A stretch of DNA of 36,829 nucleotides from Chloroflexota bacterium. Lineage in GTDB: Bacteria; Chloroflexota; Dormibacteria; Dormibacterales; Dormibacteraceae. Positions within the stretch are counted from its first letter, which is position 1, and each line of letters begins with the position of its first letter. The stretch spans positions 1 through 36,829 of the forward strand of contig VBEF01000007.1 in assembly GCA_005881275.1 (NCBI GenBank), written 5' to 3'. Under the pieces are notes generated by a model that saw only the letters and a program-made list of their open reading frames with translations, had not been told where the DNA came from and did no database searches. The translations under genes and the position numbers were made by a program. Shown here piece by piece: positions 1,422-36,829 of the stretch.

Positions 1422-1746
1422 TAAAGGGATTCAGCTCGATGCCCATCGCGATGACCAGGGCAATTCCTTCCGATCGGATGCGCGACATTGCGATGGCCGG
1501 CTCCCTGATTCTGTGGTTGGCGTACACCCGGATTTACTGGATGCTTCAGGCGGCTCACCTCACCGCCCCGCCCTGCCCCTTCTACCCGGAACGATCGTGG
1601 GCATCGGTGGGCTGGTCGCGGGTGCCGTCGCCGGACGGACCTGGACTCCGCGGCTCGCCCGTACCCAGCGGCGTGCCCTCGCCGCCGGTGTGGTCGCCGC
1701 GATCTTGTTCAGCTGGGCGCTGAAGGTGTTCGTCCTCGGCAATTAG
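1418..1746 (+). pseudogene. Doubtful small membrane ORF, possibly frameshifted
   Basis: No confident gene covers 1422-1741. One frame opens with GTG 1418, overlapping the sucD stop, and reads a hydrophobic stretch (AMAGSLILWLAYTRIYWML) before turning into arginine/serine-rich sequence with no domain character. From about 1590 a second frame becomes membrane-like (GTIVGIGGLVAGAVAGRTW, then GVVAAILFSWALKVFVLGN) and stops at 1744-1746. Joining the halves near 1580-1595 would give a roughly 105-aa protein with three hydrophobic segments. A 49-residue ORF from GTG 1597 is the alternative. I recognise no family. The call is an inference from hydrophobicity only. Confidence 0.25.
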
Positions 1747-11766: not shown

Positions 11767-12654
11767 GTGCGCGCCCTCGCCAGGGCGATCACGCTGGTCG
11801 AACGCCGAGACCCATCCATCCGACGGCTGGAGGAAATGCTTCGCCAGGACGCTCGCGTGCCCGGCGTCGTGGGCTTCACCGGTGCCCCGGGCACGGGCAA
11901 GTCGACGCTGGTCGACTCGGTGGTGGCGCTGTTACGCAAGAACGGCCAGTCGGTCGCGGTGCTGGCCACCGACCCCAACTCGCCCTTTACGGGTGGCGCC
12001 ATCCTGGGGGATCGGATCCGCATGCAGCGACACGCGCTCGACACGAAGGTCTTCATCCGCAGCATGGGGGCTCGCGGGCATCTCGGGGGGTTGTCGCTGG
12101 CCACGCGCGAAGCCATCCGCCTGTTGGGCGCTTTCGGGTTCGACGAGGTGATCCTGGAGACGGTCGGGGTTGGTCAGTCGGAGCTCGAGGTTGCGGCGAT
12201 GGCCGACACCACGATCGTCGTTTTGACCCCGAACCTGGGCGACAGCGTGCAGATGATCAAGGCAGGCATCCTCGAGATCGCTGATGTGTTCGACGTCAAC
12301 AAGGCAGACCTCGACGGCCACACGCGGGTCATGACCGAGTTGAGGGCCATGCTCAGCCTGTCGCCCAAAGCCGGCTGGAAGCCTCCAATCCTGGCCACCG
12401 TCGCGAGCCGCCAGGAAGGAATAGAGCAGTTGTGGGACGCTGTCCTGGCACACCGTCGCCATCTCGAGAAAAGCGGGCAAGCTCAGGCCCTTACGGAGCA
12501 GCGGCTGCGCGACGAGACTGCTGAGGTGGCGGCTGAGCTGGCCCGGCGCCGAGCCCGGGAAGCGCTCGACAAAGATCCCGAGTTGGCTAAACGGCTCTTC
12601 GACGACCGGACGCCGTACCGAACTGCAGAGGAGATTCTCGACCGAAAGCGATAA
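11767..12654 (+). CDS. meaB: Methylmalonyl-CoA mutase-associated GTPase MeaB (ArgK/MMAA)
   Basis: This is a G3E-family GTPase that loads and protects the B12 cofactor of methylmalonyl-CoA mutase. From GTG 11767 it is 295 aa, with Walker [10 protein letters not shown] at ~39-47, [18 protein letters not shown], the [15 protein letters not shown] switch and the guanine-specificity motif NKAD. Family-like sequence continues upstream in frame ([20 protein letters not shown]) to CTG 11725, 3 bp after the LCP stop. No ATG, GTG or TTG occurs in that stretch, so the real start is probably CTG 11725 (309 aa). It directly precedes the mutase genes, the expected neighbourhood. Confidence 0.94.
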
Positions 12655-12661
12655 TCAATCG

Positions 12662-14305
12662 ATGAAAGTCAGGGCTAGAGGCGCCAAGGAGGCCTGGCGG
12701 GAGGATTTCGAGGCCGCCCCGACGCGAGACGACGGCATCGAGACGTCGACCATCTCCGGCATCCCGCTGCAGCCGCTCTACACCTCGGAAGATCTTCCGC
12801 AGCGCGCCGAGGAGCATCCGGGCCAGTTCCCCTACACGCGCGGCATCCACCCGAGCGGCTACCGCGGCCGCCTGTGGACGATGCGCCAGTTCTCGGGTTT
12901 CGCCACCGCCGAGGAGACGAACCGGCGCTACAAGTACCTGCTCGCCAACGGCCAGACGGGCCTTTCGGTGGCGTTCGATATGCCGACGCTGATGGGTCAG
13001 GACTCGGACGCTCCAACGAGTCGCGGCGAGGTGGGGCACTGCGGCGTCGCCATCGATTCGCTGGCCGATATGGAGACGCTGTTCGAAGGCATCCCACTGG
13101 GCGAGATCACAACGTCGATGACGATCAACTCCCCCGCCGCGATCCTGCTCTGCATGTACATCGCGGTCGCCGAGAAGCAGGGTGTGCCCGCCTCGAGCCT
13201 TGGCGGCACGCTACAGAACGACATCCTCAAAGAGTTCATCGCCCAGAAGGAGTTCATCTTTCCTCCCGCTCCATCGATGCGGCTGGTGGTCGACTCGATC
13301 GAGTACTGCGCCGCCGAGGTGCCGAAATGGAACACGATCTCAATCTCCGGATATCACATCCGCGAGGCGGGATCCACCGCGGCCCAGGAGCTGGCGTTCA
13401 CCCTGGCCGACGGCATGGCCTACGTCGACGCGTGCCTGGAGCGGGGGATGCACATCGACGATTTCGCATCGCGCCTTTCGTTCTTCTTCGATGCCCACAT
13501 CGATTTCTTCGAGGAGATCGCCAAGTTCCGCGCCGCACGCCGGATCTGGGCGCGGTGGATGCGGGAACGCTACGGCGCGCAGCAGGAGCGGTCGTGGAAG
13601 CTGCGCTTCCATACGCAAACCGCCGGCGTCTCTCTCACGGCGCAGCAGCCCGAGCTCAACATCGCACGCACCGCGATCGAGGCACTGGCCGCGGTGCTGG
13701 GTGGGACGCAGTCTCTGCATACGAACGCGATGGACGAGGTATTGGCGCTGCCGACCGACAAAGCCGCGCGGCTCGCGCTTCGCACCCAGCAGCTGCTGGC
13801 CTATGAGACGGGTGTCGCCAATACGATCGATCCCCTCGGCGGCAGCTACTTCATCGAGGCGCTGACCGACGAGATGGAGAGCCAGGCCGAGGCGTACTTC
13901 AAGCGCATCGACCAGATCGGAGGCGTCATCCCGGCGATCGAGGTCGGCTTCTTCCAGAAAGAGATCGCCGACGCCGCATTTCGATACCAGCAGGAGCTCG
14001 AGCAGAAGCGCAGGCTCGTGGTCGGTGTCAATGAGTTCACCGTCGACGATGAGCCGCCGATCGACATCCTCCGCATCGATCCGCGACTGGAGAGCGAGCA
14101 GGCCGCGCGCGTCCGAGAGGTGCGCCGCAAGCGCGACCAGGCCAGATGCACGAGCGCGTTGAACAGGCTGCGCAAGGCGGCCGCGGGGACCGACAACCTG
14201 ATGCCGTACATCCTCGACTCGGTGCGCGCCTACGCCACCGAAGGCGAGATCATGCAATCGCTGATCGATGTTTTCGGTACGTACACCGAGACGGCGGTCG
14301 TCTGA
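12662..14305 (+). CDS. Methylmalonyl-CoA mutase, catalytic (large) subunit
   Basis: The protein is 547 aa. It contains the (beta/alpha)8 acyl-CoA mutase domain but not the B12-binding domain, as in bacteria and archaea with a split enzyme. Landmarks are [107 protein letters not shown] and [16 protein letters not shown]. With its partner it converts methylmalonyl-CoA to succinyl-CoA. The stop overlaps the ATG of the small subunit (TGATG). The protein itself looks intact, so the catalytic half should fold even though its B12 partner is broken in this sequence. Confidence 0.95.
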
Positions 14306-14612
14306 TGCCGACCGCGGTGCGTCCGGTTCGGATCATCGTCGCCAAGGTGGGACTCGATGGCCACGACCGCGGGGTCAAGGTCGTCGCTCGCGCGCTGCGG
14401 GACGCCGGCTACGAGGTCATCTACACAGGTCTGCGCCAGACGCCGGCGATGGTTGTCGACGCCGCCTTGCAGGAGGAATCATCCCGGACGACGACATCGC
14501 CGCGCTCAAGAAACGCGGCGTGGCGGAGATCTTCACGCCAGGCACTCCGTTGCAGGAGATCGTCGACTGGCTGCGCAAGCGCTTTCCGGACGAGAAGACG
14601 GCGAAGCGCTAG
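14305..14612 (+). pseudogene. Methylmalonyl-CoA mutase B12-binding subunit with internal frameshifting deletion
   Basis: The N-terminal part from ATG 14305 is perfect family sequence ([20 protein letters not shown]..., [17 protein letters not shown]) and keeps the cobalamin-ligand motif DxHxxG at GLDGHDRG. At about 14472 the frame changes: the C-terminal part ([20 protein letters not shown], then [19 protein letters not shown]) is read one base earlier, to TAG 14610-14612. Relatives are about 135-140 aa; here 58 plus 46 residues remain. About 35 residues between ALQE and GGIIP are missing, including the GLSxLSGxH segment of the B12 nucleotide loop. The junction lies on GGAGGA, which would occur at both ends of the lost segment, so slippage deletion or an assembly error is likely. 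The unshifted frame runs on to 14703 as nonsense. Confidence 0.88.
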
Positions 14613-15112
14613 CTCGTCGTTACGATCGTCCCCGCGACTTTGTCGTGGATCGCCTGCTTTTGTGGGTCCCACAGCTGCCAGAGCCAGCCGATGGCCCCGA
14701 TGATGCAGATGGTGAACCCAACCTCGACGATCCAGATGAATCCGCGGAGCGCGGCCTTGCCCATGTCGGGGTACTGGCCTGTGGCCTGGTCACGGACCTT
14801 GAAGCCGAAGACCATCATCCCGATCGACTGGCCTCTGGAGCTCCAGAAGTAGGCGAAGTAGGCGATGTCCGCCACGAAGTTGATGATGCCGGCCACCCCG
14901 GTGGCCTTCTGGAATATCGCGGCGATGATGCCGTTGATGACCACCAGGATGATCACGTCGATCAAGCCCCCGACGATCCTCAGCCCCGGGCTCGCAAGGT
15001 TACCCGGCATCACCATCGCGCCTCCGCCAGGAGGCATCATCGGCGGGGGAGCACCTGGGGGTACCATCGGCGGCGGCCCGCCTGGAGGTGGGGGCGGCGG
15101 TGGGTTCTGCAT
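14609..15112 (-). CDS. RDD family membrane protein with Pro-rich N-tail
   Basis: Starting at ATG 15112 (MQNPPPP) it is 167 aa; ATG 15127 is also in frame but overlaps the likely -10 box TATGAT (15128-15123). The N-tail is proline/glycine/methionine rich ([17 protein letters not shown]). The RDD domain follows: [20 protein letters not shown] with the conserved Arg and Asp, then [19 protein letters not shown], then FKVRDQ, and a last helix [21 protein letters not shown] proteins have unknown or transport-related roles. It converges with the mutase remnant, overlapping by 4 bp, and diverges from rplY. The tail resembles those of the DUF4190 proteins at 8553 and 9684. Confidence 0.87.
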
Positions 15113-15121
15113 AGCTTGACG

Positions 15122-15128
15122 TATCATA
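15122..15128. promoter_or_regulatory. Shared divergent -10 region between RDD gene and rplY
   Basis: TATCAT reads on the plus strand (15122-15127) and TATGAT on the minus strand (15128-15123), so one AT-rich spot can serve both directions. The minus-strand box is 10 bp before ATG 15112. The plus-strand box is 29 bp before ATG 15157, leaving room for an AGAGGC ribosome site. No clear -35 boxes are seen. Confidence 0.4.
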
Positions 15129-18381: not shown

Positions 18382-19029
18382 ATGACTACCTGCTGGTACT
18401 GCAGCACGGAGGTGCCGGAGACCTCCCAGTACTGCCCGACTTGCGGCCACAGCCAGACCGACCGCACATCGAGCCCCCTTTTCGGGGTGGTCGACCCGAC
18501 CACCGGGATCTGGAATTCCAAGTTCGTCAACGCGCTGGTCGGCCAGGAGGCCAACCGCGCCGTCCGGTATCACCGGCCGCTGTCGGTTTTGACCGTGGAG
18601 CTCGACCACGCCGAGCACATCCACAAGGAGCTCGAGCAGATTCAGATCGAAGGCCTTCTGCGGGAGCTGGCGGAGCGCCTCGGCCAGGCCGTCCGGGATA
18701 CCGACACGGTCGGATTCCTGGACGCGGACGGACCTCCGCATTTTGCGATCGTCCTGCCGGAAACCGACGAGCAGGGCGCCGCGCTGGCCGCGGACAAGAT
18801 CCGCCGCTCCGTCGCCTCCCACGATTTCGGCACCAGCGGCGCATGGAAGCGGATCACCGTCAGCTGCGGCGCGGCGACGATCGAGCCCGGCTACCGACCG
18901 AAGGACGAGGCCGGCCTCGTGAACCGCCGCGAGTACACGGGGAACCTCATGCGCGAGGCGTACGAGGCTCTCGACCAGGGCCGCTCGGCGGGGACGAACC
19001 GCACGACGGTCGGCGCCTACCGGCCGTAA
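18382..19029 (+). CDS. Zinc-ribbon protein with degenerate GGDEF domain
   Basis: The protein is 215 aa. A four-Cys zinc ribbon (C4, C7, C18, C21; CWYC...CPTC) is followed by a GGDEF fold that opens with the typical DPTTGIWNSKFVNALVGQE and RYHRPLSVLTVELDHAEHI. The active-site loop that should read GGDEF is replaced by DGPPHF (FLDADGPPHFAIVLPETDEQ), so catalysis of cyclic-di-GMP synthesis is not expected. It may instead bind a nucleotide or a partner. The end of the fold, ITVSCGAATIEPGY, is present. TTG 18373 is in frame, but ATG 18382 is preferred because TAGAAT overlaps the former. It is followed by the histidine phosphatase, whose frame opens within 20 bp. Confidence 0.85.
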   Translation: MTTCWYCSTEVPETSQYCPTCGHSQTDRTSSPLFGVVDPTTGIWNSKFVNALVGQEANRAVRYHRPLSVLTVELDHAEHIHKELEQIQIEGLLRELAERLGQAVRDTDTVGFLDADGPPHFAIVLPETDEQGAALAADKIRRSVASHDFGTSGAWKRITVSCGAATIEPGYRPKDEAGLVNRREYTGNLMREAYEALDQGRSAGTNRTTVGAYRP

Positions 19030-35942: not shown

Positions 35943-36829
35943 TGCCCCGACCTGGTGCCGTGATCGAGGTCGATCGAAACACGCCGCCGGTGCTCTTCCA
36001 CTTCGGTGAAGGCGTCCGGCTGGAGAAGATGCCGCTCGGCGCGCGCATCATCTATCCGCCCGACCCGCTCGAACCGATCGCGCATCCCGAGCGCGCCATC
36101 AAGCGCGCGATCGCCAAGCCGCTGGAGGACGATCCGCTCAAGTCTCTGCTCCGGCGTGGCATGAAGCTCACGATCGCCTTTGACGACCTCTCTCTGCCAC
36201 TGCCGCCGATGGCCGCGCCGGACGTGCGCCAGCTCGTGATGGAAGAGGTCATCGACATGGCCGCAGAAGCCGGGATCGACGATCTCCACATCATCGCGGC
36301 GCTGGGTCTGCACCGCCGGATGACAGAAGACGAGCTCCGGCATATCGTCGGCGAGCGGATCTTTGCCACGTTTCATCCCGACCGTTTGTATCAACACGAC
36401 GGCGAAGATCCGGACAACAACGTCTATGTCGGCAAGACCGCGCAGGGGGAAGAGGTCACGCTCAACCGGCGCGCGGCGGAATCGGATCTTGTGATCTACG
36501 TAAACCTGACTCTGGTTCCGATGGACGGCGGCCACAAGTCGATGTCGACCGGTCTCGCGTCTTTCCGCAGCATCCGCGCCCACCACAACGCGAAGACGCT
36601 GCTCGCTTCGCGTTCGTACATGAACCCGCCGGACTCGGCGCTGCATCACTCGTGCATCCGGCAGGGACAGCTAATCGAAGACACCGTGCGCGTGTTCCAC
36701 ATCGAGACCACGGTCAACAACCACGCCTTCCCCGCGGTCGCCAACTTCATGCAGAAGCGCGAAACGGACTGGACGGCGCAGGACCAGGCGATGTTCCTGG
36801 CCACCAAGCAGATGACCGACATCATGCCG
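35942..36829 (+). CDS. LarA-like (lactate racemase domain) protein, N-terminal part
   Basis: The frame is open to the window end, so the C-terminus is missing (296 codons present). It starts at ATG 35942 in the dehydrogenase stop. Family landmarks are LTIAFDDLSLPLPPM in place of the usual SDHTRPxP, ALGLHRRMTEDELRHIVGE for the AxGTHRxxTxEE motif with a nickel-pincer-binding His, NRRAAESDLVIYVNLTLVP, and GGHKSMSTGL carrying the catalytic-type Lys. LarA uses a nickel pincer cofactor to racemise lactate and related 2-hydroxy acids. The altered DHTRP segment suggests a divergent member with another substrate. It is coupled to a zinc dehydrogenase. Confidence 0.85.
   Translation, partial: MPRPGAVIEVDRNTPPVLFHFGEGVRLEKMPLGARIIYPPDPLEPIAHPERAIKRAIAKPLEDDPLKSLLRRGMKLTIAFDDLSLPLPPMAAPDVRQLVMEEVIDMAAEAGIDDLHIIAALGLHRRMTEDELRHIVGERIFATFHPDRLYQHDGEDPDNNVYVGKTAQGEEVTLNRRAAESDLVIYVNLTLVPMDGGHKSMSTGLASFRSIRAHHNAKTLLASRSYMNPPDSALHHSCIRQGQLIEDTVRVFHIETTVNNHAFPAVANFMQKRETDWTAQDQAMFLATKQMTDIMP

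Follow-up and report, generated by a model that had tools for sequence, protein, structure and literature searches.

The gene for the small, B12-binding subunit of an acyl-CoA mutase is interrupted in the stretch of DNA analysed here (the window: 36,829 nucleotides, contig C44 of G000, a 2.94 Mb draft genome of 127 contigs which is 86% complete), and this break is most probably a local assembly error, a reading to which we assign a probability of about 0.92. Most probably, the chromosome itself encodes an ordinary small subunit (about 140 residues), like that of the relatives, and the assembler would have left a stretch unplaced, joined the flanks on either side of it and dropped 115 nt. We infer that raw reads across positions 14440-14520 would not support the junction.

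The mutase locus lies on the forward strand. An intact MeaB-type chaperone GTPase (11767-12654; PF03308, 300.5 bits; TIGR00750, 318.5 bits with a cut-off of 240.75) is followed by an intact large (catalytic) subunit of 547 amino acids (12662-14305; PF01642, 764.7 bits; TIGR00641, 762.9 bits with a cut-off of 303.8), to which 16 copies from the genomes of 15 relatives are 90-95% identical over 545-547 residues. Both proteins lie directly upstream of the small subunit, and both are complete and match their families above the cut-offs, just as an earlier note on this DNA, made from its letters alone, had supposed. The N-terminal 57 codons of the small subunit (14305-14475) match TIGR00640 at positions 2-52 and PF02310 with 48.6 bits; they include DGHDRG, which we take to be the cobalamin-binding motif, DxHxxG. 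The C-terminal part, from GGIIPDDD to the stop codon (14475-14612, also on the forward strand), is read in another frame, matches TIGR00640 at positions 89-129 and is 73-98% identical to loci L006-L025 of the same family. Positions 53-88 of the model are matched by neither piece. Scored separately with TIGR00640, the N-terminal piece (14305-14478) reaches 73.6 bits, above the cut-off of 57.45, and the C-terminal piece (14469-14609) reaches 44.6 bits, which alone is below it; the intact small subunit of a relative scores 175.2 bits. No continuous reading frame runs across the domain: the frame changes at about 14472-14477, and the shifted frame reads on to a stop ending at 14703. The family matches, together with the alignments of relatives described below, bear out the earlier description of a B12-binding mutase subunit whose halves lie in different frames and whose middle segment is absent. 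An RDD-family membrane protein on the reverse strand (14609-15127; PF06271, 84.4 bits), which is outside the mutase, converges on the small-subunit gene.

Both mutase subunits are recognized by NCBIfam at the level of the methylmalonyl-CoA mutase family domain, below the cut-offs of the specific equivalogs. Judged by sequence, "methylmalonyl-CoA" is to be taken as a family name only, and we assign no substrate to this mutase. The nearest solved structures are both subunits of 2-hydroxyisobutyryl-CoA mutase: 4r3u_A for the window's large subunit (E 1.3e-166) and 4r3u_C for the intact small subunit of the nearest relative, G001 (residues 6-130, E 3.1e-42).

In comparison to G001, the small subunit lacks exactly 115 nt (88% identity over 308 aligned nt), and alignments to G004 and G009 likewise give a loss of 115 nt. 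That the loss should be of length 3n+1 was correctly foreseen (115 = 3 x 38 + 1), and of the estimate of about 35 lost codons the loss itself stood, its actual size being 38 codons plus one base. The junction (14470-14485, forward strand) is private to the G000 assembly, as judged from the alignment of 14 relatives, and a pattern search found its sequence in one of the 42 family genomes, namely the window's own. Both halves of the small subunit were found in 27 relative loci, from which the 14 aligned ones were drawn. All 27 keep the block, with exactly 108 nt between the anchors, so the halves stand there in one frame. In loci L031 and L034 neither piece was matched, as the small subunit lies outside the stretch fetched from those genomes. 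A small-subunit query gave matches in 40 of 41 genomes; in the exception, G016, the only large subunit found was a 57%-identical paralogue. The earlier note held that about 110 extra bases in relatives would make the break an assembly error, and such bases are indeed present throughout. The longer form in all 27 loci would, however, by itself fit a real private deletion just as well.

It had also been proposed that the segment was lost by slippage between copies of GGAGGA at its two ends. This idea had to be abandoned, since the right-hand site lacks GGAGGA in all 14 aligned relatives, which read GGCGGC, GGCGGA or GGCGGG before ATC; therefore only about 3 nt are demonstrably shared, and the lost copy itself is invisible. 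By eye, the other losses described below show no consistent junction repeat either.

What remains of the gene does not look like a gene in decay. The two pieces differ from G001 by 35 synonymous and 2 nonsynonymous changes and from G009 by 29 synonymous and 4 nonsynonymous ones; of random changes, 75% would be expected to be nonsynonymous. Compared with the more distant G013 (17 synonymous, 15 nonsynonymous) and G010 (15 and 18, respectively), the C-terminal tail shows more differences, in the region where the proteins of those relatives end differently. Synonymous and nonsynonymous counts thus gave no sign of relaxed selection on the remains, though a very recent loss would look alike. If the gene was lost at all, strong constraint on it would have ended only very recently. 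One residue may tell a different story: codon 48 (14446-14448), about 25 nt from the junction, encodes Ala in the window and Glu in all 14 aligned relatives, and this E48A change could be early decay, which counts against an assembly error.

A second gene on the same contig is broken by a loss of the same length. Compared with G004, a DUF2752-type gene outside the mutase (1436-1740, forward strand) lacks 115 nt at 1586 and falls into two pieces in different frames, the right-hand flank of the loss matching G004 less well (57% over 40 nt). The intact G004 protein matches DUF2752 with 54.9 bits; no Pfam match was obtained with the window's open frame. A DUF2752 query found matches in 15 of 17 same-genus genomes. 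Twelve of them hold at least 139 of the 141 residues in one frame, and the others are G001 (a piece at a contig end), G012 (residues 1-46 only) and G000 itself (the two pieces in different frames). That two unrelated genes, 13 kb from each other, have both lost their frame through losses of identical length points to a technical cause. The second loss raised our confidence in an assembly error slightly, from about 0.88 to about 0.92, and made a real deletion, which we already considered unlikely, more doubtful still. It was missed by both of the broader comparisons to G004 that follow; in the one made at gene level, its match lies under the 65% identity limit.

The gene-level comparison, run both ways with that limit, took in about 1.03 Mb of G000, including the window, and 1.13 Mb of the same-genus G004. 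With G004 genes as the reference, 234 of 297 matched genes were stop-free (230,358 nt) and 63 were dropped for stop codons; in the reverse direction, 263 of 303 matches of G000 genes were stop-free (258,453 nt) and 40 were dropped. Besides that in the mutase, frame-breaking losses in G000 affect the large subunit of a molybdenum hydroxylase (101 nt; L176, at about 19,477) and a XerC-type recombinase (103 nt; contig C20, at about 15,610, in L056), and in-frame losses were of 114 nt (an MFS transporter; L045, at about 2,677), 111, 57 and 54 nt. The other differences in G000 were one split with net 57 nt missing, one split with net zero, one frame-changing split with 23 nt extra and one in-frame gain of 81 nt. 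No loss of at least 45 nt was found in G004 among the 263 genes of the reverse comparison, which gave one frame-changing split with 29 nt extra and in-frame extras of 48, 48 and 96 nt, and which also showed the other side of the XerC-type, 114-nt and 111-nt events. The net-57, net-zero and extra results fit no single pattern. A looser gene pass revealed an in-frame 57-nt gap in G004, in a match that holds stop codons.

The XerC-type gene is present in G000 in one copy, as two pieces broken within one contig. It was matched in 15 of 17 same-genus genomes, 10 of which hold at least 302 of its 303 residues in one frame. Shorter matches occur in G012 (279 residues) and in G009 (276, from a contig end); in G005 there are 271 residues with the last ones in another contig, and in G006 the gene is split over two contigs.

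A survey at DNA level, covering 339,490 nt of G000, gave 10 losses of 95-115 nt, 7 of 50-94 nt, none of 116-173 nt and 6 of 174-200 nt. G004 shows losses in such a survey too, eight of 77-215 nt, and the three of these that measure 95-115 nt, against 10 in G000, count against an assembly error. Most of the DNA-level losses checked do not interrupt an identified gene, and we therefore relied on the gene-level count. When the window was tiled against three relatives, other differences of at least 60 nt appeared, most of them beside flanks that match poorly. If both flanks are required to reach 75%, only the 115-nt loss in the mutase is left, together with a difference of 173 nt from G001 at 19029, beside a gene end. 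In G000 itself, rpoB and rpoC are both intact, and none of the genes shown to be broken there is known to be indispensable, which also weighs against an assembly error.

Indispensable genes are, however, broken in the assemblies of relatives. RNA polymerase is indispensable to the cell. In the class, RpoB was matched in 97 of 110 genomes, and in 15 of the 97 its frame changes inside one contig, by losses of 7 to 214 nt and by two gains; in the family, RpoC was matched in 33 of 42 genomes, with a frame change inside one contig in four of them, one by a 275-nt gain. In G023 both genes are affected: a clean block of 110 nt is missing from rpoB around codon 414, and about 104-107 nt are missing from rpoC. 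Because RNA polymerase is indispensable, these breaks must be technical, and their frequency in RpoB suggests that draft errors are widespread in the group. They are a simple warning against calling a frame-broken gene in such drafts a pseudogene until reads support the break. Mutase genes of relatives are affected as well: large subunits or their paralogues in six of them have interruptions within a single contig, of 114 and 99 nt (both in frame), 106, 31, 86 and 67 nt, those of 86 nt (G023) and 67 nt (G010) being less sure, as they lie in more distant copies.

We considered a uniform loss size as a possible fingerprint of the error, and rejected it: the frame-breaking coding losses found in G000 are of 101, 103, 115 and 115 nt, but those in the RpoB of relatives range from 7 to 214 nt and are accompanied by gains, and one family has in-frame losses of about 150 nt that seem to be lineage-specific. 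The size class of 100-115 nt is hence suggestive only, and its lack of universality counts against an assembly error. Overlaps between contig ends were too few for anything to be inferred about the assembler, as only two (55 and 36 nt) were found among 83 ends. The last 55 nt of the window (36775-36829) recur unchanged at the start of contig C61 (L137) of the same genome, and the two contigs probably adjoin.

The explanation that survives best beside an assembly error, and which we nevertheless regard as very unlikely, is a real, very recent and private deletion. It would have left a null small-subunit allele and abolished the cobalamin-dependent acyl-CoA mutase activity, with the catalytic subunit and MeaB still looking intact. 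A clean junction with a loss of 3n+1, the E48A change and the failure to find a replacement subunit in G000 would all agree with such an event. Against it stand the DUF2752-type gene, which lies on the same contig and is broken by an equally long loss, the similar losses in other G000 genes and in the RpoB and RpoC of relatives' assemblies, and the lack of any other sign of decay. A real deletion would also strand two large subunits without a B12 partner along with MeaB, as G000 has a second one on another contig (C94, 53325-54926, in L147), about 55-60% identical to that of the window. Both large subunits lie on one contig, 14-20 kb apart, in nine family genomes (G004, G007, G008, G010, G013, G014, G015, G020 and G022). 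Among the 17 same-genus genomes, G000 included, the small subunit was matched once in 15, twice in G007 and not in G016, and it may be that the two catalytic subunits share one B12 subunit. Nothing but the break itself was found to suggest that the pathway has been lost in this organism. A recent loss, which the earlier note had offered as one option, is disfavoured by the constrained appearance of both small-subunit pieces and of the two neighbouring genes; we hold it improbable that a soil population with two catalytic subunits and MeaB, minus the B12-binding subunit, is caught at the start of losing a cobalamin-dependent acyl-CoA rearrangement. Of the options raised at the outset, an assembly error is the one favoured by the evidence: the junction is private, similar breaks affect unrelated genes of G000, and indispensable genes are broken in relatives.

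Far less probable is compensation through a second mutase B12 subunit encoded elsewhere. Room for one exists, as the genome is only 86% complete and about 14% of it is perhaps missing. Nevertheless, searches with PF02310 and with the small-subunit query found no other mutase B12 subunit in the 2.94 Mb available, the query hitting only the window locus, and the second subunit which had been suggested was thus not recovered. PF02310 finds four places in G000, the window locus and three open frames, one on C74 (240 residues), which by eye looks like a methyltransferase corrinoid protein, and those on C23 (1169 amino acids) and C69 (585 amino acids). Equally remote is the idea that the halves, both of which are conserved in sequence, function as separate peptides or are joined in expression through programmed frameshifting, as 38 codons of the domain are absent rather than merely out of frame, not one of the 27 relative loci that hold both halves shows this arrangement, and the junction is private.

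A local assembly error, which we thus prefer, has parallels in the literature. In a study of soil samples, PMC6784897, assembly was done with IDBA-UD and scaffolding errors were corrected afterwards. Local assembly errors in metagenome assemblies, as described in the portion of PMC7111523 at hand, are alike in that faulty joins yield incomplete or incorrect protein-coding sequences; they differ in that they are identified there by missing perfect read support, with no size given in that portion, whereas the break reported here is known from assembled sequence alone. Many apparent pseudogenes are assembly errors according to the available part of PMC11017572, and the present break would resemble its spurious pseudogenes in being caused by assembly; the same part states that metagenome-assembled genomes were not assessed there. 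The present case guards against inferring pathway loss from one draft genome. Among the mutases themselves, the closest counterpart is the small subunit of 2-hydroxyisobutyryl-CoA mutase (4r3u chain C; 2yxb; TIGR00640), which the intact G001 copy resembles also in adjoining a separate large subunit, and it is from these stand-alone B12-binding small subunits that the window copy departs, in being without 38 codons of the domain and without a common frame.
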